Source: Thalassia testudinum
Lineage: Eukaryota > Streptophyta > Magnoliopsida > Alismatales > Hydrocharitaceae
Length of the DNA stretch: 64,000 nucleotides
Direction: 5' to 3'
Assembly (NCBI GenBank): GCA_037157565.1
Contig: JAZHRO010000012.1
Location: 8,706,501-8,770,500 of the forward strand
Under the pieces are notes generated by a model. That model saw nothing but the letters and a program-made list of their open reading frames with translations. It was not told the origin of the DNA and searched no databases. The translations under genes were made by a program, and so were the position numbers. Positions 2,134 to 64,000 of the stretch are shown here, piece after piece (the first letter of the stretch is position 1; the number at the start of each line of letters is the position of its first letter).

Positions 2134-2176
2134 GTCCCACCTCGGAAGTGGGCAAGCAGGCATATGCACATAAATT
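2134..2176 (+). promoter_or_regulatory. snRNA-type USE + TATA module in LTR I
   Basis: GTCCCACCTCG at 2134-2144 resembles the plant snRNA upstream sequence element RTCCCACATCG. After exactly 24 bp comes CATAAATT (2169-2176). GCCTC, the start of a conserved block, begins 30 bp after the start of the TATA-like box, at 2199. The 24-bp spacing fits the U6/U3 (Pol III) class. Confidence 0.5.
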
Positions 2177-2193
2177 GATTTTGTGCATAGGCC

Positions 2194-2437
2194 TTATCGC
2201 CTCCAACTCATAGGGTGAGGTCTCTCTCTCCCTTCTCACAGCCTCGTCTGCGGCACTGCCCACGCAGATCTAGCCACGACCCGTTTACCTGAACTGACTC
2301 ACTCCTCACTCACCACCCACACTGGTGAGCTTAGACCCGGGTCTCCATTAGGTTCGATTACCTGACCCGAATGTGGCTTTGGGAGAGCGAACCAAAATAG
2401 AGAAGAGAGGAACACTACGTAGGGGAAGGGGGGTTTT
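2194..2437 (+). ncRNA. Predicted Pol III-type transcript in LTR I
   Basis: Inferred only from position. It would start about 25 nt after the TATA-like box and end at the TTTT run 2434-2437. It opens with GCCTC...GGGTGAGGTC, whose GCCTC and GAGGT can pair, and contains a GGTTCGATTAC stretch one base off a B-box and the motif GCTTTGGGAGAGC. No known RNA family recognised. Confidence 0.25.
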
Positions 2438-11130: not shown

Positions 11131-13320
11131 CATAATGATAGCGAAAATGCGTGATTTATAAAAATTGTGAATTAGGTCGTTGCAACATGCAATTTGGGTC
11201 GCTATTAAATTTGTAAAATCTGAGTACTTGGGAAAGTATTCAGGTCATCCCAAGGAAGGTAGGGATGCTTTTAAAAAAATTCTTGTTTGATATTAGGAAA
11301 TCAACTTTCTTTTTGGGATTTTGAAATATATACTTTTTAGGTTTTTTGAATACGGGCAAAATAAAGGCAGAGTGGAATGGGAATTTGAATTACGAGAAAA
11401 CAAAGCAACAAGTGTCTTGTTTCTCCAACTCACTCCAAGCAAGGAATGCTTGGAATAATGGGTAACAAGTCACAACAAAAGAGCAACACAAGCTATTTAG
11501 AAGAATAGTAGAGGAATGCTTCTTAAGTGAAATTATTTTACAACGGGGTTGGAGAATTTAGAAGTGAAAGGAATTCCCACTTGTAATCTCCAACAAAAAT
11601 CAAACACTAGACTACCATGCAACAAAATACAAGGAAAATGTAGAAGAAAGCTTATGAAGAAGGTGATGATGATGTTGCAGAGTTTTCGCTCCAACTCAAG
11701 TTGCCCCTCGGTTGAAGGAAGCTTGCTCATGGTGCCTGGCTTTCCCTCCTTTTGGCAAGCCCTAGATGGGTGTGCCTGGATCCTCCTAGAGTGGAAGATT
11801 TCCACTCCAAAAACTCCTCCTTAGGGTGGCGTGGACCACCCTCCTTGCTTCTCCTTTGGATGTCCTGCTTGCTTGGCCTTCCTCCTTGGTTAGGTGATGA
11901 CACAAGGAAGAAGAAGAAGAAGTTGAAGCCACCAAGGAGACAAAGTGTCTCCTTGATCTTCTTCTTCCTCTCCTTTCTTCCTTGGTCTTTGGTAATGGTG
12001 GATCTAGGTGGAGAATAATAGTAACCAAGGATGGTTTGAATGGGTGGTTAATGGCCCTTTATATAGAATGGAAGGGGGGGGGGGGTAGGTATGGTTGAAG
12101 GTGGATGGCTAGGATGGCTTATAGAGGGTGGTTATGGGATCCTATGGCTAGGGTTGGTGGTGCCAAAGTGAAGGGGCATCTAAGAGTTGGCACCAACCCT
12201 AGGTGGAGACTAGGGTTAAGGGATTGTGTGGTGTGTTGTAGGGTAAGGATGGGGTTATATGGTGGTGGTTATGAGATGGATGGTGGATATGTGTTGCCAC
12301 GATATATAGAGTTGTGAGTAGGTGTGGTTAAGGGTTAATTTAGAGTGGTTGGCACCAACTCATGGTGGGGACTAGGGTTAACAGTTGGCGAGGAGCGTTG
12401 TAGGGTTAGGATGAGCTTATAAGGTGGTGGTTATATGGTGGAGGGTTGAGGTTAATTGGCGCCACATGAAAGTGTGTAGGGTAGGTGGGTTTAGGTTAAG
12501 TTGGCTCCAATTTTGGTGTGGTTAAGGGAATTATCTTTGGCACCAACATGTGGATGGATGTTGACAAGCGAAATTGAGGTTATAAAAGCTGTGTATTAGT
12601 ATAGGTCGAAATTGCTTGAAAACAAATAAAATTTATACTCGAATGAAAGTCCAAGGTCGTTTGCTGAGAGCAAGTAGGAATTCACGCACTAATCTTGATT
12701 AACAAGTACATGAGCACAAGAAATAAGCCAATAAATTACTCAGAAATGATAATCAATGTAAAGCATGAGTTTAACAATAAATATGCATGGCAAAAAGAAT
12801 CTCAAAGCAAAAATAACGGTGATTTAGATCACCAATTATTCAATTTAAGCATATATGCATTGAGTTCAAATAATACAATAGTGCCATCAACCATTCAAAC
12901 TTAGGTACTTAAATATATCAACAGTATCAACCAGGTAAATGGCTTAACCAACAGATGCTACGGTGCTAGGGAAGCATTGTTCCTCTTCTTCCTCTTATCT
13001 TCTTTCTTTCCTTCTACTTTAGCTCTTTTTTCTCTCTTTGGCTTTTGTCAAGGCCTTCTTCCTTTCCTCCTCTTCTTTCTTCTTCATGCATAGAGGGAGG
13101 CAATCCCTCCAGTGACTAAGTGTCATAGAGAGCAAACCCCCTTGCCCCCACACTTGCTCTCTCTCCTGTTCCTCCTCTTCTCTCTCAAATCAGGCAAGTA
13201 TACGGGTAATCGGTTCAAAGCCCAGACCTTCGTGGCGTGGCTGCGGGCGAGGGCGTGCGTGGGCATGTGTGAGGGGACCTCACCCCGTGCTACTGAGGCG
13301 ATAAGGCGGTAGCAGAAAAT

Positions 13321-13364
13321 CCACTTAAGTGTCTTCGCACGCCTGTCAGCATACGAGGTGGGAC
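13321..13364 (-). promoter_or_regulatory. snRNA-type USE + TATA module in LTR B
   Basis: On the minus strand, GTCCCACCTCG (13364-13354), a 24-bp spacer, then CTTAAGTGG from 13329. GCCTC begins 30 bp after the start of the box (13299). Downstream there is only TTT at 13136-13134, so this copy lacks a T4 terminator. Confidence 0.45.
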
Positions 13365-14279: not shown

Positions 14280-14541
14280 AAAACCCTCCCCTACCCCGCG
14301 CAGACTCTCCTCTCTTTCTCTCCTTGGGCCACGCTCTCCTAGAGCCTTGCACAATACCAGGTAATCGGATTCGAATCTAAGTGCACCTGGGTCCAGACTC
14401 ACTGGTAATGGGTGGCGAGCGAGGAGTGGATAGCGTAGGCGGGTAGTCGGATCTGCGCCAGGTCCACGGGGTAACGGGTCATGGGCAAGGCACAGGTGAG
14501 GGCCGTGAGGGACCTCACCCCTATGTTTCTTGAGGCGATAA
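14280..14541 (-). ncRNA. Predicted Pol III-type transcript in LTR A
   Basis: Inferred from the module: start about 14541, ending at the T4 run (14283-14280 on the minus strand). It carries GATTCGAATCC (about 14366-14380), one base off the B-box consensus, and the hairpin GCTCT-AGG-AGAGC. Confidence 0.25.
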
Positions 14542-14558
14542 GCTGATGCAACTTTTTC

Positions 14559-14601
14559 CTCTTATGGCACTACATCTTCTCTTCCATATCCAAGGTGGGA
14601 C
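14559..14601 (-). promoter_or_regulatory. snRNA-type USE + TATA module in LTR A
   Basis: On the minus strand, GTCCCACCTTG (14601-14591), 24 bp, then CATAAGAG from 14566. GCCTC begins 30 bp after the box start (14536). The USE-like site sits in an inverted repeat, GGTGGGA-TTTAG-TCCCACC. Confidence 0.5.
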
Positions 14602-21836: not shown

Positions 21837-22082
21837 AAAATTGCCCTGCCCCCGCATGCTCTCTATTTCCCTCTCTGGGATCCGCTCTCCCAGAGCCTCG
21901 GGTAATTGGATTCGGATCTAAGCGTACTTGGGACCAGAGTTGTAGGGGTGATATGGCAGCCGAGGAGTGAAGTCGGGTTAGGTGGGTCGGGTCAGCGCCA
22001 AGCCCACGTAAGCAGTGTCACAGGCGAGGCGTATGAGGGTGGCTTATGGGCGACATCACCCCTCTTGTGTACGAGGCAAATA
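21837..22082 (-). ncRNA. Predicted Pol III-type transcript in LTR C
   Basis: Inferred start about 22082; TTTT at 21840-21837 on the minus strand. It includes the hairpin GCTCT-GGG-AGAGC and a B-box-like GATCCGAATCC. Confidence 0.25.
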
Positions 22083-22098
22083 GCCCGTATCACAAATT

Positions 22099-22142
22099 CA
22101 ATATATGCAGCGCTGTAGCTTCACAGATTTCCAAGGTGGGAC
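22099..22142 (-). promoter_or_regulatory. snRNA-type USE + TATA module in LTR C
   Basis: On the minus strand, GTCCCACCTTG (22142-22132), 24 bp, then CATATATTG from 22107. GCCTC starts 30 bp after the start of the box (22077). This copy has a good TATATA core. Confidence 0.5.
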
Positions 22143-27879: not shown

Positions 27880-28500
27880 TATTGTTGACCCTCTTGTTCT
27901 ATCTTTCGTGTCTCCTTGCAGGGGATGCCTCGTTGAGGAGAGAGCCAATGTGGGACCAGTTCGTGACTCTCTTCTGCAGGCAATACTTTCCGCAGACCTG
28001 GCAGGACCAGAGGAGGTGGGAGTTCCACACTCTTTGCCAGGGGACAATGACTGTTAGCGCGTACTGCACATGTCTTTTGGAGCTATCACGTTTTGCCTTG
28101 ACAGCTATGTCTACGGAGGAGGAGCGCCTGTGGAGGTTTACTGACGGGGTATGTCAAACCCCTGAAGCTGCCCTCTTTCTCTCATGTGGTTGAGGCAGCC
28201 ATGACCTACGAGGAGACCAACTTGGCTGCGTGAGATACTAATAGCAGATGGAAGAGGCCCTACTAGCCAGAGTACTCTTAGGGCCGTCGAGAGAGGAGGC
28301 ACACAACACCCCGTATTGTTTTGCAGGGCCATTAGTGGCCTTTGGGGGCCCCAGGCAGGGGCCAGTTGCCAGCATCGGACCCCTGCCCAGCCTCCAGCAG
28401 GGACCTACTGATGGAGGAGGTCGTGTCCCCCTCTGCTACCAGTGTGGCCAGCCGGCCCACATCAAGAGGGACTGCCTATCTAGGGCTGGAGCACAGTAGA
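27880..28500 (+). pseudogene. Tekay-like gag, decayed
   Basis: Capsid-type blocks (MWDQFVTLFCRQYFPQTWQDQ, then SAYCTCLLELSRFA and EEERLWRFTDGV) match the Retrotrans_gag domain, which packages element RNA into virus-like particles. A CCHC zinc knuckle, CYQCGQPAHIKRDC (28434-28475), is intact. The two halves lie in different frames, and stops and a shift near 28190-28240 break it. Confidence 0.8.
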
Positions 28501-49830: not shown

Positions 49831-50045
49831 CTGAATTAGCATGTACAAAGTACTAACTTTAGACAACTTTTAAATATAACCAAATAAGTTATTATTCTAA
49901 ATTAACTTCGTAATTATGTAGCCCTATATAAAGGCTTTAAAATGATATAATTTATTTTGAAATTGGACTTAAAATCAACACTCAAATTGAGGTCCAAAGT
50001 TGGCCTCAACACATGCTAAATCGCACCAAATCAGCCCCCGTGATA

Positions 50046-50089
50046 GTCCCACCTCGTTCCATAACGGGCAGGCGTGGTCGTATTTAATG
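50046..50089 (+). promoter_or_regulatory. snRNA-type USE + TATA module, eighth site
   Basis: GTCCCACCTCG (50046-50056), 24 bp, TATTTAATG (50081-50089). GCCTC follows 22 bp after the start of the box rather than 30. The surroundings differ from the I/A/B/C/D/E family, so this is the most independent occurrence. Confidence 0.45.
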
Positions 50090-52729
50090 ATCCGCACTCA
50101 ATGCCTCGGTAGTCATTAGTGCTGGGCCCGGATAAAAACCTTTACCCCATAAGCATACATTAATATATTCTGAACATAGATGTGGTGTGGGATGGGAGCC
50201 CAGTCTGGCCCGATCTGGTTGAGTTGGATTTGGGTCAAAAGAATGCACTCTGTAACGACCCGATTCCCGAATCCCTACCAGACACGAGAATCGGACCGAC
50301 TCGACTGATCCCAAGACCCAGTCGTCCAACGAGAAAGTAACCAAAAGAGCAGTAAAATAAACCACATTCAACATGTATATAACTAGCAGTAACAAAATAC
50401 AGCAGTAGAGAAAAGAAATACTACAGTATACACCACCACAACAGTAAAGAAATAAACATATACATAAACATGAAGCTTACAATAAAGAGAGTACAGGGGG
50501 TAACAGAAACTACTCACTACAACGGAAAGAAAAGTACAGTGGGTACTACTAGTAACACTACTGGGCTCTACTAGGCCCAGCGCCCTCTGCAGCTGCCGAC
50601 TCTGGCTGCCCAACGCCTGGTCCTGAAAAGTAACAAGGGTGACACGTCAACGAAATGCTGAGTAGAGTGTCAACTAAAAGCTAGAAAAAGCAGTAGAGTG
50701 GACAATAGCTGTTATATTTTCACTTTCTTTATATTTTTTCCATTTATTCACTATTGATTTATTTCTCAGATCCTTCTCTTGATCTTGAATGTTCCTCGTG
50801 GGAACGATCTTGATTGTAGTCTTTTCTGAAAAGTAGAAGTAACACGTGGTGCTCTCCTGGCCGGGAGAGTCCCCCGTGGTGGTCCTACTGATGAGAGCCT
50901 CATCATGAGCCATAACTAGTTCATTTTGACCCAATAAAGAAGATAAAAGCTCCTACATAACCTAGAAGAAGGCTTAACTGAAGGAACAAGTGCTTTGAGA
51001 AGAAAACATGAAATAAAGGTTAAAACTGTAATTTTACCGCTGCAGTACATAAACGGGATTTCTCAGAAGCAAAACATAGGTCAAATGGTCCAAATAAGAT
51101 AAAAAGAGGGTTGAGTCAATCAGAAATGGGTTTATGCACAATCTAAGAATTAAATGACACTTGGTAACCCTAAAACAGACCCGCTTAAATTAACAAGGTT
51201 CCGGTCAGGATAAAAATCGAGTAAACCATCTAAAAATCATGGAAAAACATCCTCTAGGGTTTAGAACACTTAATTTGGCCTTTGGAACCTAGTCTGACCT
51301 AGATTAGGGTCCTAGCTCCTCAATTAACCAAATTTGGATTTTTACGCAAAATATCCAATCAAACAAGGTCAAACCTGAAATCCAACTTCGCCATTGGATT
51401 CCTTAGGTTCAAATTAGGGTCATACCAAAATTCGGACCTAAGGGGAGGTCATCTTGACCTACTTTGCAATTTAGTACACCTAAATCGCAAATAGGTCCCT
51501 ATCTTTTGAATATCCTTGCAAAGAGCCCCCCAAGTTCTTTGCCCCCTTTGCAATCCGGTCCTGCCGCCATTGTTAGGGCAGAACCGAGCTCCGGCGAGGT
51601 TCAGAGAGGGATTGCTCTCTAATCCCTCAGAGATTCCCTCCCAGAAATGGAAGGGGGATTCTCTGAGGAATTCCCTTCCTTATAAAGCCAATTACAATCG
51701 CTAGTGTGAACCCAATCTCTCGTGCGAACGCACGAGAGATTTGGGTATCCACCTTCCTTCCAACTCCGGCAAGCTGGCAGACCTAATTGCGCGCTCTTCA
51801 CGCGCTGATAAGAGCAGCCAGCACCTATAAAACACCCCCCAGACCCTGCCGCAGGACCGAAGCTTGATTTTGACGGAGATCCCCTCCCAATTTCCTCTCT
51901 CCCATCTCCAGCCAAACGACCCGCAAGCTCCGGCGACCTCCTCCCCTCCGTCTCGTCGCTCTGCTGCCATACCAGCAGCAGAGTCCTCTCCACCTCTTCC
52001 TCCCGCGTCGCACTATACCCCGTGCGCGTGCTCCTGACCTCATCTTCGTCGCCGCTTCCTCCCTCAGGGTCTTTCTTCCCCGACGACGGCAGTTACGAGC
52101 CGTCCTCTCCACCGCCTCCCTTCCTTCCCGACAAACCCAGATACATTCTCCATCCTCTCCTCTCTCTTTTCCCCGTACTATTTTACTTGATTACCCCTCG
52201 ACAGTACCTAACCACCTCCATCGTTCTCGCCTCCGACCGTCCTCCGGCGAGCTGCCCACACCACTCCGCCCCTCCACACGGCTCGCCAACCCCCTCGTGA
52301 GCTTCGCCTCACCACCAGGAACCCATTCCACCCCATCATTGCCACTCCAGACCTCCACAAGCACCCCCCGACCAACCCACCATCTCCGGCCACAGGTTGA
52401 CCTAGGCACGCACGCTTAGGCCGACCTGCAACCTACAGCATCGCCCACCGCCTTCGCCGTGCTACGGCGAAGGTTTCCAGCTATTCTGATTGGGCCAATA
52501 GGCCGTTCTGTTGGATGTCAGGTGTACGCCCCAGCTGCCATTAACAGCCGAAGCAGCAAGGAGCTTGGAGTAGCTTCGGGCATCAGGCTTCCCAGGCTGC
52601 AGGTGTAGCAGACTCTCGCGAAGGTCGCGAAATGAACGAGGCCAGCCAGTCGCACAGAGGAGCCATCAGCTTGGGCAATCGAGTGACGAAATCTCTGCGG
52701 GCGCGCGTGAAGGCAAGACCTACCAGATA

Positions 52730-52772
52730 GTCCCACATCGTGGGATTGCAAAACTCAGGTATCCTATAAGTT
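52730..52772 (+). promoter_or_regulatory. snRNA-type USE + TATA module in LTR E (best match)
   Basis: GTCCCACATCG (52730-52740) is a perfect match to the plant snRNA upstream sequence element. 24 bp later comes TATAAGTT (52765-52772). GCCTC begins at 52794, 29 bp after the start of the box. USE and the next bases form TCCCAC-ATC-GTGGGA. Confidence 0.6.
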
Positions 52773-52789
52773 GTTTTTGTGTTTTCTTC

Positions 52790-53042
52790 TTAGTGCCTCC
52801 GTAAGCACAGGGGTGAGGTCCCTCACTGCCCCCATACGCCTCGTCCGCGGCTTGATCTCGCGGATCTGGCGGATCCGACCCGACCTAAACCTACGCACTC
52901 CTCGTGCATCACCACTTGCCGGTGCGCCTGGTCCCGGGTGCGAATCCGACCCGACTACCCGTGTGGCTTTGGGAGAGCGTGCTTGAGTGAACTGCTTGAG
53001 AAAAAGAGAGACGCTTGGGTAGAGGGATGGGGGTAGGTTTTT
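52790..53042 (+). ncRNA. Predicted Pol III-type transcript in LTR E
   Basis: Inferred start about 52790; ends at TTTTT 53038-53042. It contains GCCTC ... GGGGTGAGGTC at the start and GGTGCGAATCC (about 52939), one base off a B-box. Not a known RNA. Confidence 0.3.
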
Positions 53043-56000
53043 GCTACTGTGTGGTGTGTAGGAAGGAAGAAGTGACCGAGGCAGCGAACACTTAGCAGCT
53101 GAAGAACAAAAAGAGAAGAAAGAAGAGGCTGTGTAGCAGTGAAAGGAGAAGTCTTCGCCGAGAAGAAGAAGAAGAAGAAGGAAGACAAGGCAGAAGAGAG
53201 AGAAGAACAAAGAAGAGGCCAAGTGAAGACTGCAAAGAGATCAGAACAAAAAGAAGAAAGAAGAAAGGCAAGGCAGGAGAAGAAGGAAGATATAGAAGCA
53301 GAAAGGAGAAGAAGAGAGAAAGAGAGATCACATTTAAGATGTCTGATACAGAAATCAGACGTCCAATTCTACTTCTTTTCCACAAATCCTTTTTAAAACT
53401 CTCTCTTTGAATCAATTATATTTGCATTTAACAGTTGTATTCTTTGGTTTTACAAAGTACTGAGATTGCTCCCCGTGTTCGACCTCGGATACTCTAGTTC
53501 TTCGAGTAATAAAATTCTTTATATTTGTTTAAACGTTTTGTCGGTTATACTACAATGTAATACGCTTTAAATCCGCACAAAATCGTTGAGAACACCTACC
53601 CTCAGTCAACCACCCAAGGTCGCTGACAGACGTAACGGTGACTACGGCATGTGCGATAAACGCACGGGTAGCTACCCCGCACTGGCACGCGGTCAGTCGT
53701 TTCCGTTAACGGGTGCGCCCAAAGCACAGCACGGAACCAGTATAGGGCAGAGCCCTCTTAGTAACAGGGGTCCATCCCCTCCACAGTAACCAAACAGGGG
53801 TCATGCCCCTCCACAGTCCGCGCACCCTCGCCTAACTACCCTGGTTTTCCCAGTGGGCTTAACAAGTCGGTGTAGGAAGGCCAGCAGAACCCCGAGGCCC
53901 ATGGGGTAGCTAGTGCTCTCCCTACACTAGTAGCTCTCACCGGTACGGTGTACATGAGGGCCAAGAGTCAGTACAAAATGGCCAGACCTAACCTCGGGTC
54001 CCTAGGGCGGCTGGCTCTCCTCTGCACTAAGAGGTAATAGGTGCTTTCCCTGGTACTACGTACCCAAGGGACAACAAACTTTCCCATTCACTTTTCCAAC
54101 TCCATCCCATTTATTTTCAGGATTATTTTCAGGAGCTCTACTCCTAATTCCCCATAGGGTTCATGCTCATGTTTCTCAGGCTAAGCCATACTAGGTTTCA
54201 TCATTTCAGGTTGATACGCATATAATACGTGTTGCAACATTCAACTTCCTTTTTCTTTCCAATTTGTATACAAACAGCTCGTATTTAATTTCAACCAACA
54301 GAAATTACATGCAACAGTTAGTAGTAATAGTACCCTACATTCCACAGGCAGCTGTTGATGAGAACCTCATCATAAGCCATAACTAGCTCATTTTGACCTA
54401 ATACAGAGACTAAAAGCTCCTACATAACCTTAGAAAGGCTTGGCTCAAAGAGATTCTGAGTTTGCAAAGAAAACATAAACTGAGGGGTAAAAATGCAATT
54501 TTACCAATCCAATCTGAAAACAGGGTAACTCAGGGTCCAAACATAGGTCAAAACAACCTAATAAGAAGAAAAGTGGGATGAAATCACTCAACAAGGGCTA
54601 CAACAACTCCGAAGAATTAAATGACATCCTATAACCCTAAAAATAAACCCACTTAAATACACGAGGTTCGAGGCAAAGTAAAAATAGAATAAACCCTCTA
54701 AAATTCATATAAAAATAATCTCTAGGGTTTAGAACCTTCAATTTGGCCTTAGGAACCCATTTTGACCTACATTAAGAACCATGCCCAATTAAAAACTTAA
54801 TTTGGGTTTTTGCATAAATTGACCGATCAAACAAGGTTTAATCTAGAAATAAAATTCACCATCAGAATCCTTAGGTCCTAATTAGTCATGCACAAAAACT
54901 TGAGCCTAAGAAGAAACCTTCTTGACCAACTTTACACTTTGGTCCTCATACATTTACTTTCTGGCCCTCAACTTTTGAACCCTCACATTTTGGCCCCTAA
55001 CTCTCCTTCGTTCTTTGCATTTAGGTCCCTCCTGCAAAACCTGAGCAGCACCATGCTCTGGCGCACCATGCTCCAGCGACCTTGGCGGAGCATGGCGCCG
55101 CGCAGGGTAAGGGAGGGAGCCTGCCAAGTCAAATGGGGGTGCCCTGCGTCGTCAGCCATCGCAGGAGCACCCCGCTGAGTGCTGCGACCGCCCATACCTC
55201 CCGTGCGAACGTACGGACGGTATGGGTCTCCTTCCTCCGGCGTCCTCCGGCGAGGGAGACACGTCGTCTCCCTCCGCCCTCCTCTCTGATTCTGCCCCTA
55301 TAAATACCCCCGTCGCTCCGCCGTTCTTCCGAGCTCGGATCTGATGGAGATACCCCCTCACTTTCCTCTCTTCCCACTTCAATAAATGCCCCCTTGCTCC
55401 GGCGGCTTCTCGTCCTCCTCCTCTTCGCTCTGCCGCAATACCAGCAGCAGAGACTTCTTCCTGATTCTCCTCCGCGTCGCGCAATACCGGCGCGTGCTGC
55501 CTCTGCCCCGTCGTCGCCGCCGTCCTCCCCCACTAGGCATTTCTTCTCCAACTCCGGTAGGTACGAGCCGGCAGCCCCTTCGTCACTTTAGCTAGGTTAG
55601 AATTAGTCTTCTCTATCCCCTCTTTCTTTTCCTCCTTATTTTACAGTCAATTACACCCTCGACCGTGCCTAATCACCCTCACCTTCTCCACCTCCGGCCA
55701 CACTCCGGCGACCCTCTCCCATCACTCCAGCAACCCACACGGCTCGCCGACCACCGCAGAACCTCCGCCTCCTCACCCTGATCCTCTTCCGCCCTTCCAC
55801 TTCCCACCAAACGCCCTCTGCAGATCCACCGAACACACCCACTTCTCCACCTGTAGTTTGACCTAGGGTGGCCCTCATGCTCTGCCCCGCCGCCTGCTAG
55901 ACCCCCCACCACCTTCGCCATGCCACGGCGAAGGTTCTCCGCGTATCTGATTAGGCCAAGAGGCCATTCCTCTGTGGACAGGTATCTCGACCGCTGTCGC

Positions 56001-56189
56001 CATTGCTGCGCTGAAGAAGCACCTTCAACCTGCAGCTCCAGGTGCGCTTCGCCTAGGTCCGACTCCCAGGCTGTGCGGGGCATCTCCGCGAAGAGTCCCA
56101 GGCTCGCAGCTGGGGCGAAGGCCTCACGTGAAGCCGCGATTGCCAGCTGCCTCCTCCGCTGCAGGCGCTCAATTGGGGTGGGACATTTA

Positions 56190-56232
56190 GTCCCACCTTG
56201 GAAACTTTGAGAGGCACGTGGGCGCTTAAAGG
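56190..56232 (+). promoter_or_regulatory. snRNA-type USE + TATA module in D 5' LTR
   Basis: GTCCCACCTTG (56190-56200), 24 bp, CTTAAAGG (56225-56232). GCCTC at 56255, 30 bp after the start of the box. USE is the right arm of GGTGGGAC-ATTTA-GTCCCACC. The box is weaker than in C or E. Confidence 0.45.
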
Positions 56233-56249
56233 TAAAAAGTGCCTTAGGC

Positions 56250-56497
56250 TGTTCGCCTCCTGATCACGGGGTGAGGTCCCTCTCACCCGCCCGACTACTC
56301 GGCCTCGTCCGCGCTCACGCCCCGCGGACCTGACCCGACCCGATTAACCCGACCTGCACTCCTCACCCACCACCGCACGCCGGTGGGCCTGGACTCGGGC
56401 ACGACCCGCATACCCGATTAACCGGTTGCTCTGGGAGAGCTTTCCTAAGAGTGAATTCTGAGAGAGAGAGACGCGGGGGGAGGGTAGAGTAGGTTTT
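56250..56497 (+). ncRNA. Predicted Pol III-type transcript in D 5' LTR
   Basis: Inferred start about 56250; TTTT at 56494-56497. 5' pairing GCCTC/GAGGT and hairpin GCTCT-GGG-AGAGC near 56428. Function unknown. Confidence 0.25.
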
Positions 56498-57102
56498 GCC
56501 CTCTGACAAAAACCTTGAAGTGTGCAGGCACAGGTGAAGAAGAAGAAGAAGGACTGCGGAAGAAAAAGAAGAAGAAGAGAACACAAAGAAGAAGAAGACG
56601 GAAGCTAAGGGAGACACTGTAGCAGTAGCGGTTTAAGTCGTCTGATTGCAAATTCAGACGACGTCTTGAAGGCAAGGAAGAAGAAGAAAAGAAGAAGCAG
56701 GACTGTGGCAAAGAAGAGGAAAGACAAGAAAGAAGAAAAAAGAAGAAGATCTGAAGAAAAAGAAAGAAAGAAAACAAGGAAGAGCAGAAGACAGAAAAGG
56801 AAGAGCACGAGGGGAAGATCTGAAGAATAAAGAAGAAGAAGAAGAGCACGAGAGGAAGAGAAGAGAAGATAGAGGAAGAAAGAAGAGAAAAAGGAGAAGC
56901 CAAATTTTCATCTCTCTCTCTCTCTCTCTTTATTTTTGTAATAAGAATTTGTACTTCTAAAATACGACTTGCTCCCTGAGTTCAACCTCGGGAACTCTTT
57001 TATTTCCAAGTAAAAAGATTATATATGTAATGATGGCAATAACTAGGTGTACTACAATGCTAATTTCTATAGCAAAACCTAGTCATAACGCCGTCGTCAC
57101 TT

Positions 57103-57120
57103 TGGCGCTGTTGCCGGGGA
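57103..57120 (+). promoter_or_regulatory. Primer-binding site of element D
   Basis: TGGCGCTGTTGCCGGGGA, 3 bp after the LTR. It differs by one base from TGGCGCCGTTGCCGGGGA, the site typical of Athila-type elements and attributed to tRNA-Asp. Confidence 0.8.
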
Positions 57121-58208
57121 GCAACGGCTATTCTAGAGGTAATTAAATTCCTATTTTTAAATTTCTAATAATCTCTCCTTTTTTTGTGCAGCTACAGGAA
57201 ATCAAGAAGACAAGCAACCGTGCGACAACCACTCCGAGGACAGGTAATTTTCTATCCTCTCAACCCCTAAATTCTAAAGAGGAAGAAAAGAAAAGAACAA
57301 GCAATATAGGGCTAACTTGTCTTCTATACTTAGTAAACCATAAAAAGTTGCATGTTTTCAACCCATTATTCCTGCACACTATTAAGGGTATTTAAGGGCT
57401 AACACATTCTTGCTTGAGCCCTAATTACCCAACAAGAACTAACTGGACCAAATAGAGCCAACATAAGATTCAACATTAGGGTTTTAGAGACACACTACTT
57501 AAATCAAGAATGGAGAAAATCCAAAAGAAGTGTGCCTAAACCATTGATTGAACATACTTATTCAGAGAAACCCTAAACAATTGGCTCTCTAAACACTTGA
57601 ACCCAAAAAGAAAGGACCCAAAAGCTCTCAAAAGAACAAGAGGTAAAGTTGACCCCTTGGGTCAACCAACCTTAAAATTAGGTCACTTTCTCACTCAAAA
57701 TACCTAAGAGTTTAAGTGTAACTTTAAGCACCCTGATCTTAAACTAAAATTGGTAGACTTAAGAGGTCAAGATCCCCATTCTGGTCTACCTGGAATCTCA
57801 GTGACAAGAGAGGTCGGGTGGGGGAAACCCTGTAACCCGTGGGGATGCTCTACCGTGTAGGGGTCTTCGCGGGACTCACCCTCTCTGGCTGCCCAGGTAA
57901 TTCTCAGGTGGACGATCTTTCTGATCAAGGGGTCCATCTGCCCTGCACCTCTATAGTCACCTAACAATTTTTGGGTGTCTTGATTGGGTCCAGCACCTGC
58001 TTATCTCATCCAGTCCTTTAGTATTTTGCAGGAGGTCCTTGAAACCTCCTATAGAAATTCACTCTCCCCGAGGCTAAGCCTCGGCTCCCTTGTTTTTGCA
58101 GAAATCATTCACATAGCCCCTCTTTCCTCTTATTCTGAACAAAATCCCCTTCTTCCATCTTGATTCAAACTTCGATTCTATATCTTGATTCCACCACCTG
58201 ATTCAAAG
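57121..58208 (+). other. Leader of element D
   Basis: Noncoding. 57780-58000 matches the leader of H: 'gggggaaaccctgtaaccc', 'gctctaccgtgtaggggtct', 'tggctgcccaggtaattct', 'ttgattgggtcca'. The match fades at about 58100, before the coding region. Confidence 0.7.
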
Positions 58209-60078
58209 ATGCAGCCACACCAATTAAGACTACCATTCAAAAAACCTGAATATCTGAGATCCATGAAAGATACGATGATTGAGGATGCCCTTGAATTCTA
58301 TGAAATCAAATGTAAACCCTCAACACTAATAGAAAACATTCAAGTTGATGTCCCAACAAACACAGCTTTCATCATAAACTGTGCCCAAATTCTATTGACA
58401 GAAGTTACAAAAGGATCAACCCGAGATATGCTCATGACAGGATACATTGAGATAGAAAAATTACACCAATCTGAATACCTTCAATGCTTGACAAATCCTG
58501 TACTTTGGGAACAACACCAAGATGCCCTTATAAAATGGGTAGAAATGATGAAATCAGTAGAACAAATTATCAACCAGAAATACCCGTATATACCAGAAAC
58601 AGAGGATGAACCATCTTGGAACAGTAGTAAGGAACAATCCAGTTTCCCAGATCTCGAGACTGAGGCACAAAGTGGTTGTGGAATCCCAACCCAGATAGAA
58701 GACAATGTTGAATTTGGTTGGGATATTGCAGGGAGAACACAATGATGAGCCAAACTTAGACCATGAATTGTCAAGCCTAGAATTCCAGAACTCCTGCAAT
58801 AATGAGATCAGAACTGAACCTTTTGAGGGTATAAATTCCGCCCCTTATTTTGATAAGGTGGCCCTCGAAGGTTATTCGGACTTAGGTTCTAATAATTCTA
58901 CCCACATCCTAAGCTTAGAACCTAGATCTGAAACTTATTGGGAAGATTATGAGGCCCCTTATGAGAAAGATCAAATTTTTACAGAATATGATTTCGGGCC
59001 TCTATTTGATGAATATCCCTCTCCAACATCCTCAGGAAATTTGATCGATTTTTCGAAAGTCATGCCAATTTATGATACAGAAACTGAGGAGTTGGATGAG
59101 TAAGGTTTTAATTGGGTCTATCCTACCAGCTTGGAGCTCGAGCCTAGACAGAATACCTTTTCGAGCCCAGAATTGACATATAGACTAGACCCCAGTCAGG
59201 CTGCTGATTCCACATCTGATGATTTATGCTGCGGTGGAATTCATAATCATGAATCTCATTTTCGCAAACTCTCCGACAACTTCAGATCCGACTATAATTG
59301 CGGAGAGATTCTCCTTCCTGAACACGCCAGGCCCATCTACGGCCTCAGTTCACATGACTCTGACTCCGACTCTGAGGTCCTGATTCCCGAGATCACTGAT
59401 AACACAGAATCATTCCTTTTTGATCCTCAGGAACCAAAAACAGAAAATGCCAAGAGTGATTGCAACTCAGAATTCAAATCTTTTCTCAATTCAGATTTCT
59501 TTCATCCTACAGACACTCTTCAGGCATTTGATAGTTACCCAGAGGACTCTTTACATAAAATCACCTGTCATTCCTTTCTAGATGAGCCCTCATACACAGT
59601 TGCCACCTCGTCTACACACACAGAACTAATCAAAACCTCTTCCCAACCCTGACCCGCAACCGGACTCAATTTCTATTCAGATTCACCTCTCACCGAGCCG
59701 ATTGCATTTCCACATCGGGTTTGGAACACTGATCAGACTACATATCATGCTCCATCATTCTTTGGTCACCCCTGTAGGGTTTCCGCGTCATTCATTGATT
59801 ATTCTACGGGTCCCTACTATGACCAGGCTGATTCGACTCAGCCAAACCCTGCGTTTTCACTTCCACATCCATCTGAGCTTCATAGTATATGGTGGGTTCC
59901 ACACCTTTTTATCCACATCTATCAACCCACCAGATTGATTGGGTTTGGGCTGCATCATCAGCTTGTTGATCTGAACAAGCACCTGGTTGGACTAACCAGG
60001 CTCTTAATCAAGGTGCTTGTATTACAAAACTCTGCTGATTTCACCATCCCCTCTCCATCGCATTTCCCGCTTGGCTGA
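58209..60078 (+). pseudogene. Unrecognised coding region of element D, about 620 codons, one frameshift and two stops
   Basis: The first ATG (58209) follows the leader and opens MQPHQLRLPFKKPEYL. The frame runs to 58745; from about 58730 the reading continues in the next frame (EHNDEPNLDHELSS) and stays open to TGA 60076-60078, broken only by TAA at 59101 and TGA at 59650. The open run over about 1.87 kb with so few breaks argues for real coding. The N-terminal part (about 120 residues: AFIINCAQILLTEV, EYLQCLTNPVLWEQHQDAL) looks helical and folded. The middle is very acidic and rich in Ser, Asp and Glu (SSHDSDSDSEVLIPE), probably disordered. The C-terminal part is rich in His, Pro and aromatic residues. 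No gag motif, zinc knuckle, DSG/DLG protease, RT or transmembrane signal is visible. It occupies the place of gag-pol. I do not recognise the family. Confidence 0.6.
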
Positions 60079-61628: not shown

Positions 61629-63457
61629 TGATGAGAACCTCATCATAAGCCATAACTAGCTCATTTTGACCTAATACAGAGATTAAAAGCTCCTACATAA
61701 CCTTAGAAAGGCTTGGTTCAGAGAGATTCTGAGTTTGCAAAGAAAACATAAACTGAGGGGTAAAAATGCAATTTCACCAATCCAATCTGAAAACATGGTA
61801 ACTCAGGGTCCAAACATAGGTTAAAACAACCTAATAAGAAGAAAAGTGGGATAAAATGACTCAACAAGGGCTACAGCAACTTCGAAAAATTAAATGACAT
61901 CCTGTAACCCTAAAAGCAAACCCACTTAAATACACGAGGTTCGAGGCAAATTAAAAATAGAATAAACCCTCTAAAATTCATAGAAAAATAATTTCTAGGG
62001 TTTAGAACCTTCAATTTGGCCTTAGGAACCCATTTTGACCTACATTAAGAACCATGCCCAATTAACAACTAAATTTAGGTTTTTGCGTAAATTGACCGGT
62101 CAAACAAGGTTTAATCTAGAAATAAAATTTACCATCAGAATCCTTAGGTCCTAATTAGTCATATACAAAAACTTGAGCCTAAGAAGAAACCTTCTTGACC
62201 AACTTTACACTTTGGTCCTCATACATTTACTTTCTGGCCCTCAACTTTTGAACCCTCACATTTTGGCCCATAACTCTCCTTCGTTCTTTACGTTTAGGTC
62301 CCTCCTGGAAAACCTGAGCAGCACCATGCTCCGGCGACCTTGCGCAGAGCATGGCGCCGTGCAAGGTAAGGGAGGGAGCTTGCCAAGTCAAATGGGGGTG
62401 CCCTGCGTCGTCAGCCACCGCAGGAGCACCCCCCTGAGTGCTGCGACCGCCCATACCGCCCGTGCGAACGCACGGACGGTATGGGTCACCTTCCTCCGGC
62501 ATCCTCCGGCGAGGGAGACACGTCGTCTCCCTCCGCCCTCCTCTCTGATTCTGCCCCTATAAATACCCCCGTCGCTCCGCCGTTCTTCCGAGCTCGGATC
62601 TGACAGAGATACCCCCTCACTTTCCTCTCTTCCCACTCCGACAGACGCCCCCTTGCTCCGGCGGCTTCTCCTCCTCCTCCTCTTCGCTCTGCCGCAATAC
62701 CAGCAGCAGAGACTTCTTCCTGATTCTCCTCCGCGTCGCGCAATACCGGCGCGCGCTGCCTCTGCCCCGTCGTCGCCGCCGTCGTCCCCCACTGGGCATT
62801 TCTTCTCCAGCTCTGGTAGGTACGAGCCGGCAGCCCCTTCGTCCCCTTCGTCACTTTAGCTAGGTTAGAATTAGTCTTCTCTATCCCCTCTTTCTTTTCC
62901 TCCCTATTTTACAGTCAATTACATCCTCGACCGCGCCTAATCACCCTCACCTTCCCCACCTCCGACCACACTCCGGCGACCCGCTCCCATCGCTCCAGCA
63001 ACCCACACGGCTCGCCGACCACCGTAGAACCTCCGCCTCCTCACCCTGATCCTCTTCCGCCCTTCCACTTCCCACCAAACGCCCTCTGCAGATCCACCGA
63101 ACACACCCAGTTCTCCGCCTGTAGTTTGACCTAGGGTGGCCCTCATTCTCCGCCCTGCCGCCTGCTAGACCCCCCACCACCTTCGCCGTGCCATGACGAA
63201 GGTTCTCCGCGTATCTGATTAGGCCGAGAGGCCATTCCTCTATGGACAGGTATCTCGACCGCCGTCGCCATTGCTGCGCTGAAGAAGCACCTTCAACCTG
63301 CATCTCCAGGTGCACTTCGCCCAGGTCCGACTCCCAGGCTGCGCGGGGCATCTCCGTGAAGAGTCCCAGGCTCGCAGCTGGGGTGAAGGCCTCACGTGAA
63401 GCCGCGATTGCCAACTGCCTCCTCCGCTGCAGGCGCTCAATTGGGGTGGGCCATTTA

Positions 63458-63500
63458 GTCCCACCTCGGAAACTTTGAGAGGCACGTGGGCGCTTAAAGG
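63458..63500 (+). promoter_or_regulatory. snRNA-type USE + TATA module in D 3' LTR
   Basis: GTCCCACCTCG (63458-63468), 24 bp, CTTAAAGG (63493-63500), GCCTC at 63523. The USE differs by one base from the 5' LTR copy (CTCG rather than CTTG); spacing unchanged. Confidence 0.45.
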
Positions 63501-63517
63501 CAAAAAGTGCCTTAAGC

Positions 63518-63765
63518 TGTTCGCCTCCTGATCACGGGGTGAGGTCCCTCTCACCCGCCCGACTACCCGGCCTCGTCCGCGCTCACGCTCCGCGGACCTG
63601 ACCCGACCCGATTAGCCTGACCTGCACTCCTCACCCACCACCGCACGCCGGTGGGCCTGGACCTGGGCGCGACCCGCATACCCGATTAACCGGTTGCTCT
63701 GGGAGAGCTTTCCTAAGAGTGAATTCTGAGAGAGAGAGACGCGGGGGGAGGGTAGAGTAGGTTTT
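63518..63765 (+). ncRNA. Predicted Pol III-type transcript in D 3' LTR
   Basis: Same layout as the 5' LTR copy; TTTT at 63762-63765. Inference only. Confidence 0.25.
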
Positions 63766-64000
63766 GCCCTCTGACGAAAACCTTGAAGTGTGCAGGCACA
63801 GGTGAAGAAGAAGAAGAAGGACTGCGGAAGAAAAAGAAGAAGAAGAGAACACAAAGAAGAAGAAGACGGAAGCTAAGGGAGACACTGTAGCAGCAGCGGT
63901 TTAAGTCGTCTGATTGCAAATTCAGACGACGTCTTGAAGGCAAGGAAGAAGAAGAAAAGAAGAAGCAGGACCGCGGCAAAGAAGAGGAAAGACAAGAAAG

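Follow-up and report, generated by a model that had tools for sequence, protein, structure and literature searches.

At the predicted U3/R border, the LTRs of a very abundant Ty3/gypsy retrotransposon of Thalassia testudinum carry a module with the layout of a plant snRNA-gene promoter. The module, found in a 64,000-nt stretch of genomic DNA (hereinafter the window), contains a USE matching GTCCCACMTYG and preceded by TA, a spacer of 24 bp, a box of the form YWTAAA and a predicted start at GCCTC, 65 bp past the USE start. The constancy of the box at 24 bp reaches far beyond the window. Judged by sequence and geometry, which both support the preliminary description of an snRNA-type module within gypsy-type LTRs, the module is very probably a functional snRNA-type promoter, and Pol III is rather probably its regular user. 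The full account, an snRNA-type core promoter at the U3/R border from which Pol III would initiate and produce a short leader RNA, is the one that we moderately favor.

All eight places that the preliminary description had named for GTCCCACMTYG are present (Table 1), and a ninth exact match at 27956(-) has no box (4/6 at 24 bp). The expected number of USE matches per 64 kb is about 0.1, as calculated from the genome-wide rate of a reversed-pattern control. Seven of the eight places are clear members of the family. The eighth, at 50046, has a box of 4/6, no GCCTC at +65 and a location outside the identified LTRs. GCCTC had been placed 30 bp after the box start with two exceptions; the exception of 22 bp at 50046 is correct, while in the LTR designated E (USE at 52730) the distance is 30 bp, not 29 bp. 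The USE of LTR E is indeed a perfect match to RTCCCACATCG, other copies having C for A and/or T for C. The TATA boxes are less poor than had been feared: the family box is YWTAAA, and CTTAAA, CATAAA, TTTAAA and TATAAA all occur among the sampled copies described below.

Table 1. Coordinates of LTRs, promoter modules and associated features in the window
Feature	Position	Strand	Remarks
LTR E	50889..53594	+	Begins TGATGAGAGCCTCATCAT; USE 1841 bp inside; start from common homology start with LTRs at 327, 54356, 61629 (+) and 16461, 17932, 23988 (-); 3' end approximate, inferred from a different homology block starting at 53595
USE GTCCCACATCG of LTR E	52730..52740	+	TA before
24-bp spacer of LTR E	52741..52764	+	
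TATA-like box of LTR E	52765..52770	+	TATAAG
GCCTC, predicted start of LTR E	52795..52799	+	USE start +65; inferred from U3/U6 geometry
First sense T4+ run after predicted start of LTR E	53038..53042	+	T5, +243; candidate Pol III terminator or splice-acceptor tract
5' LTR of a pair spaced 7.3 kb	54356..57098	+	About 96% identical to the LTR from 61629; 3' end approximate
PBS-like TTTGGCGCTGTTGCCGGGG	~57101	+	After the 5' LTR 54356..57098
Module	56190..56259	+	USE, 24 bp, CTTAAA at 56225, GCCTC at 56255
Leader	56255..56497	+	Predicted start to T4 (+239)
3' LTR paired with the LTR at 54356	61629..64000	+	Cut by window end
Module	63458..63527	+	USE, 24 bp, CTTAAA, GCCTC at 63523
Module in LTR starting 327	2134..2203	+	USE, 24 bp, CATAAA, GCCTC at 2199
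Module	13295..13364	-	USE at 13364 reading down, 24 bp, CTTAAG, GCCTC
Module in LTR starting 16461(-)	14532..14601	-	24 bp, CATAAG, GCCTC
Module in LTR starting 23988(-)	22073..22142	-	24 bp, CATATA, GCCTC
Exact USE, membership unsupported	50046..50056	+	TATTTAAT at 24 bp (4/6 of YWTAAA); GCCTC 22 bp after box start; poor downstream alignment

In some copies (window 56160-56215 and 63430-63480), the USE and an inverted half form the palindrome GTGGGAC-ATTTA-GTCCCAC, or nearly so. A second, divergent promoter from this palindrome was considered and rejected, as the inverted half has no box in either case read, 56184(-) and 22148(+). Between the LTRs, 58164-60078 (+) contains four open pieces, three of them in one frame and split by single stops; no Pfam match was obtained at 0.01 for any of the four, nor for the three in one frame when E was relaxed to 5.

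The LTRs are about 2.7 kb long, have the ends TGATG..CATCAT and, in 13 copies, contain the USE 1,807-1,860 bp inside. Four sampled LTR pairs are 94.5, 97.6, 99.7 and 99.9% identical, and the PBS-like motif TTTGGCGCCGTTGCCGGGG follows one LTR of each pair and is absent after its partner. A gag domain (PF03732), cut by the locus end, is located behind two LTRs (L045 and L051). Paired LTRs, PBS-like motif and gag are those of a Ty3/gypsy LTR retrotransposon, and the full module is present in copies that moved recently, as the identity of 99.7 and 99.9% in two of the pairs implies. Long LTRs, PBS-like TTTGGCGCCGTTGCCGGGG and PF03732 are shared with Athila/Tat (OTA) elements. TTTGGCGCCGTTGCCGGGG is a hallmark of Athila/Tat, to which the elements may belong, and described Athila LTRs are not known to have a USE. 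The accessible part of PMC6317226 does not present the motif as such a hallmark. Gag-like ORFs in the genome resemble plant ones. The LTR before the gag-like ORF in L043 has no PBS-like motif, so this ORF was taken as flanking DNA of another element, and a homology search with it (18 proteins) has no bearing on the main LTR family. The RT ORF behind L044 was likewise set aside as flanking DNA of another element.

A pattern search of the 4.26-Gb genome (237 contigs) returned 135,071 exact GTCCCACMTYG sites (67,434 + 67,637), versus 6,961 (3,425 + 3,536) for the reversed pattern. YWTAAA follows at exactly 24 bp at 69,032 sites (34,459 + 34,573), against one in the control, so a strict box stands at this single distance in 51% of all genomic USE matches; these copies are neither independent nor from a single family. 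Genome-wide counts for the other gaps are 2,165 at the four lengths of 20-23 bp (control 7), 346 at 25-28 bp (control 7) and 625 at 30-34 bp, the Pol II distance (control 29). An earlier, looser pattern, GTCCCACATCG N8-38 TATA, had given 20,877 sites versus 26 in its control. The reversed-pattern and box-spacing controls rule out a chance origin of the module. A spacer length varying freely among other copies, the result that would count against the preliminary description, was looked for and not found.

The 24-bp length is not universal, since the 20-23 class is mostly 23 bp, as judged on 100 of its 2,165 places. In these first 100 places, modules with a 23-bp spacer often read GTCCCACATCGTGTGGGACAAA... 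followed by CATAAA, and their spacers are diverse among themselves; the group is probably a separate element lineage with its own fixed spacing. A third module type, GTCCCACATYGGTYRGTRTGGGAY..CTATAAA-like (L110 and others), has gaps scattered over 25-32 bp, partly in the Pol II range. A tandem array (G000:C4:33301717-33312137) contains seven copies of USE + 25 bp + TTTAAA, mostly about 1.3 kb apart, its unit carrying a USE-like module.

Single copies were read in a nearly unbiased sample of 72, comprising the nine USE matches of the window and 63 of the first 64 sites on contig C1 (C1:525770 left out); many sampled copies are pairs belonging to one element. When the 12-40 bp after the USE were scanned, a full 6/6 YWTAAA was found at 24 bp alone in 47 copies, at 30 bp alone in two and at 32 bp alone in one (L110). 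A box of at least 5/6 stands at 24 bp in 61 of the 72, the 11 others being L041/2441, L046/2762, L058, L086, L098, L104, L109, L110, L111, 50046 and 27956. Fixed length goes together with free sequence, as had been claimed: the 49 distinct spacers fall into 18 clusters with a mean between-cluster identity of 8.4 of 24 positions, versus 6.3 for shuffled spacers. TA precedes the USE in 30/30 distinct LTR modules, at a position outside the search pattern.

A subset of 59 of the 72 copies was chosen independently of the box, by the downstream motif GGGTGAGGTC (at most two mismatches, between +60 and +110). The best box is at 24 bp in 56 of the 59. Two have it at 30 bp (L105 and L106, CTTATATTTAAA, each with a weaker box at 24), and the one at 26 bp is a tie at 4/6. 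[GA]CC[TC] occurs at USE+65 in 59/59, as GCCT in 55, this position being the predicted 5' end. The next gap in the same copies, from the +65 pentamer to the downstream motif, varies in length, with six values from 8 to 13 nt. The +65 and 24 counts made in the set of 30 modules are conditioned on a box at 24; the genome count, the best-box table and the 59-copy set are unconditioned.

When 13 LTR copies are aligned, gap openings are absent from the first two 25-nt bins counted from the USE start, although these bins are only 64 and 51% identical. Gap openings per 100 aligned pairs number 1.1-4.9 in the three bins just upstream of the USE and 3-5 from +75 to +249. Long parts of the upstream LTR have few or zero gaps too; approximately 250 bp from about -475 to -225 before the USE are almost gapless at 47-68% identity and have no coding periodicity. 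A coding region in U3 was rejected as the cause of the few gaps, there being no consistent three-base mismatch periodicity and no common reading frame. Because the upstream LTR is also gap-poor and has no coding signal, descent accounts for part of the constant spacing.

Descent could be carried further: GTCCCAC may be bound by an unrelated factor, for example a TCP-like protein, with the distance to the TATA box inherited and not selected. GTCCCAC is close to TCP-type sites, and the many gap-poor bins upstream would also be expected. This explanation must accommodate 69,032 sites at 24 bp versus 2,511 over the eight neighbouring lengths, and 18 spacer clusters of low mutual similarity with the same length. 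It must also accommodate a second LTR-like repeat (L041/L046 and L054/L057), which is 1.3 kb long with TG..CA ends (TGCAGG...CA), carries the module 198 bp inside and differs from the main LTR in its R start. Only a purine-rich downstream tract of this repeat matches the main LTR (E<=1e-3), and the module is thus not confined to a single LTR family. Finally, USE, TA prefix and start distance coincide with those of U3 and U6. We consider this explanation very unlikely; the 24-bp length is probably maintained by selection. Host SNAPc and TBP would form a single rigid unit on USE and box, and such rigid binding would explain the near-constant length despite changing spacer bases.

The U3, U6 and U2 genes of the same genome, located by Rfam models, calibrate the geometry. 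Their upstream sequences were read, and the RNA 5' ends given by the models were re-anchored on the 5' sequences usual for these RNAs. The comparison covers the loci that have a USE-like match, namely 8 of 30 U6 loci cut out (48 found), 5 of 7 U3 loci read (27 found, 7 above cut-off; the Plant_U3 family matches the genome) and 7 of 20 U2 loci cut out (37 found). The other loci read, probably pseudogenes, have no USE where one is expected. USE start and RNA are separated by 65-66 bp in 5/5 U3 loci (66 by raw model start), by 63-65 bp in 8/8 U6 loci (61-65) and by 75-78 bp in 7/7 U2 loci (75-79). The box is 31-35 bp from the USE in U2 versus 24 bp in the LTRs, so the LTR USE is one helical turn closer, as in Pol III genes. 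TA precedes the USE in 7/8 U6, 5/5 U3 and 3/7 U2 loci.

The resemblance to U3 extends to the sequence. Four U3 copies read TTA-GTCCGACCTCG, then CATACAGG or CATACACG at 24 bp, with the RNA 65-66 bp from the USE start; their USE carries a C, like several LTR USEs. CATACA at exactly 24 bp in these copies scores 4/6 as a box, and in two of them other offsets score equally. The fifth copy (L085) has GTACGACATCG with TATATATA at 24 bp and its RNA likewise at 65. In U6, the USE is mostly TTTA-GTNCCACATCG-like, and the best TATAAA-like stretch is 22-27 bp away, not strictly at 24. Plant U6 usually begins GTCCCTTCGGGGAC; the U6 copies L009-L012 begin GTCTCTTCGGAGAC, a paired change in the 5' stem.

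The choice between Pol II and Pol III in plants is considered to depend on the USE-TATA distance, short spacing going with Pol III, according to the available part of PMC9845283. Based on this rule and on the USE-to-start geometry of the host U3 and U6 genes, Pol III would most likely initiate at GCCTC. Alternatively, the module may be an LTR core promoter that recruits Pol II alone, the 24 bp being set by SNAPc-TBP contact and polymerase choice by another feature, for example a TYGCCTC initiator. The RNA would then have a cap and a poly(A) tail added near the LTR end, and might be spliced from a donor GGGTGAGG to an acceptor YAG after GGTTTTGCYCT. Consistent with Pol II, the predicted start has Y-G, and AATAAA, ATTAAA or AATAAT occurs 690-835 nt past it in 19 of 29 modules, a count made without a shuffled control. 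A splice-acceptor-like motif is also common to the copies. In window 56480-56540 and its homologues, a common GGTTTTGCYCTCTGAC..GTGCAG|G is downstream of GGGTGAGG and resembles an intron acceptor and donor in R.

An LTR retrotransposon requires a genome-length RNA, and T runs bear on how it could be made. The 7,268 nt from the predicted start to the 3' R of the window's element contain 36 sense runs of T4+, of which 14 are T5+ and one is T7+, with no T-run depletion beyond composition. T5 runs would halt Pol III, and genome-length Pol III transcription is therefore unlikely. These points speak for Pol II alone. Set against them, the USE-to-start distance fits U3 and U6 and is off the host's own U2 by about one helical turn, and short spacing is tied to Pol III in the accessible text of PMC9845283. 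Initiation by Pol II alone appears rather unlikely, though it is the alternative to which we give most weight. The earlier equation of short spacing with the Pol III form stands as far as the USE-to-start distance is concerned, which equals that of U3/U6 and not that of U2; transcription by Pol III is a prediction from it, the T4 at about +240 is ambiguous, and the 14 sense T5+ runs speak against.

The first T4+ run is 225-260 nt after the predicted start in 23 of 29 modules (99, 99, 182, 214, 486 and 606 nt in the other six). At about +240 it is only T4-T5, located mostly inside GGTTTTGCYCT, and a YAG, identified by eye, follows after approximately 18-31 nt; GGTTTTGCYCT..YAG may thus be a splice-acceptor tract. 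In the account with Pol III initiation, a short leader RNA would end near this first T run as a putative terminator. Genome-length RNA would be made by Pol II from the same start or by Pol III read-through, since the need for such RNA implies one or the other.

The leader has paired changes. Across 14 aligned leaders, pairing is retained through two-sided changes at 11 of 34 predicted pairs, versus a mean of 4.4 in shuffles (0/500 reach 11) and 0-3 in slid versions of the alignment; this same alignment supplied the structure, and related sequences can exceed shuffles. In window 56255-56497 and its homologues, the pair-keeping changes are mainly in two hairpins, which might serve the genomic RNA as a packaging or dimer signal, or belong to a short RNA. 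A greater stability than shuffles was rejected for the one leader calculated (z 0.15), and no known RNA family was found in the leader, six weak matches at E<=1 being below gathering scores.

In a related alternative, genome-length RNA begins elsewhere in the LTR, and the module has only the role of yielding a short Pol III RNA, decoy or regulatory, or of holding the LTR open. The position of the first T4 and the paired changes of the leader are compatible with it, as is the precedent of Cassandra, a TRIM that is described in the available part of PMC10853983 as an LTR retrotransposon with a 5S rDNA Pol III promoter in its LTR. GCCTC, however, is the obvious start of R, and we hold this alternative to be quite unlikely. 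It overlaps with the favored account at the Pol III step, so the probabilities given to the explanations do not sum to one.

Cassandra is the closest known case and, as far as the accessible text goes, indicates that carrying a host Pol III promoter is viable for an LTR element. Both systems have a host Pol III-type promoter within retrotransposon LTRs. The promoter of Cassandra, as described there, is an internal 5S promoter in a short, non-autonomous element, whereas here it is external and snRNA-type, with LTRs of about 2.7 kb and gag present. A search of window 50000-58000 for 5S gave no match at E<=1. In Cuscuta campestris, a USE occurs at most of 156 interface-induced miRNA loci of the trans-species MIRNA class (PMC10226582). 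These loci likewise represent a USE-based, U6-like promoter co-opted outside snRNA genes, but they are not LTR elements. The trypanosomatid Pr77 promoter is bound by TBP and SNAP50, according to the part of PMC8190864 available. A SNAPc-type factor on a retrotransposon promoter is common to Pr77 and, by prediction, to the LTRs here, but Pr77 is at the 5' ends of non-LTR elements.

The plant U3 and U6 type 3 promoters, represented by those of the same genome, share with the LTR module the USE sequence, the TA prefix, an AT-rich box and, by prediction for the LTRs, a start 63-66 bp past the USE start. Unlike those genes, the LTR module is located in a gag-carrying retrotransposon, with its strict matches spread over more than one repeat family, and has a T run of only T4-T5 at about +240; U6 boxes, by best match, are not fixed at 24 bp. 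Among the titles and abstract starts listed, from which subscription journals are mostly absent, there is no description of a USE/TATA snRNA-type promoter in LTRs, which is weak evidence of novelty.

The farthest-reaching interpretation, which we put forward tentatively and hold to be somewhat doubtful, is that in a gag-carrying Ty3/gypsy lineage the usual Pol II LTR promoter has been replaced by a host SNAPc type 3 promoter and the RNA is begun by Pol III. One genome would then contain tens of thousands of U3/U6-like promoters, and the fixed 24 bp would be the trace of selection for Pol III.

A very abundant LTR element with the promoter layout of an snRNA gene raises the question of which polymerase makes the element RNA. 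Tens of thousands of repeats keep the Pol III distance, among them LTR retrotransposons expected to need Pol II. Either this is a major exception to the spacing rule, or Pol III, via the snRNA machinery, starts the RNA of an LTR retrotransposon. Competing sites for SNAPc in this genome would number in the tens of thousands, and anyone looking for snRNA genes or guide-RNA promoters by a USE-TATA search in such genomes would retrieve mostly transposons.
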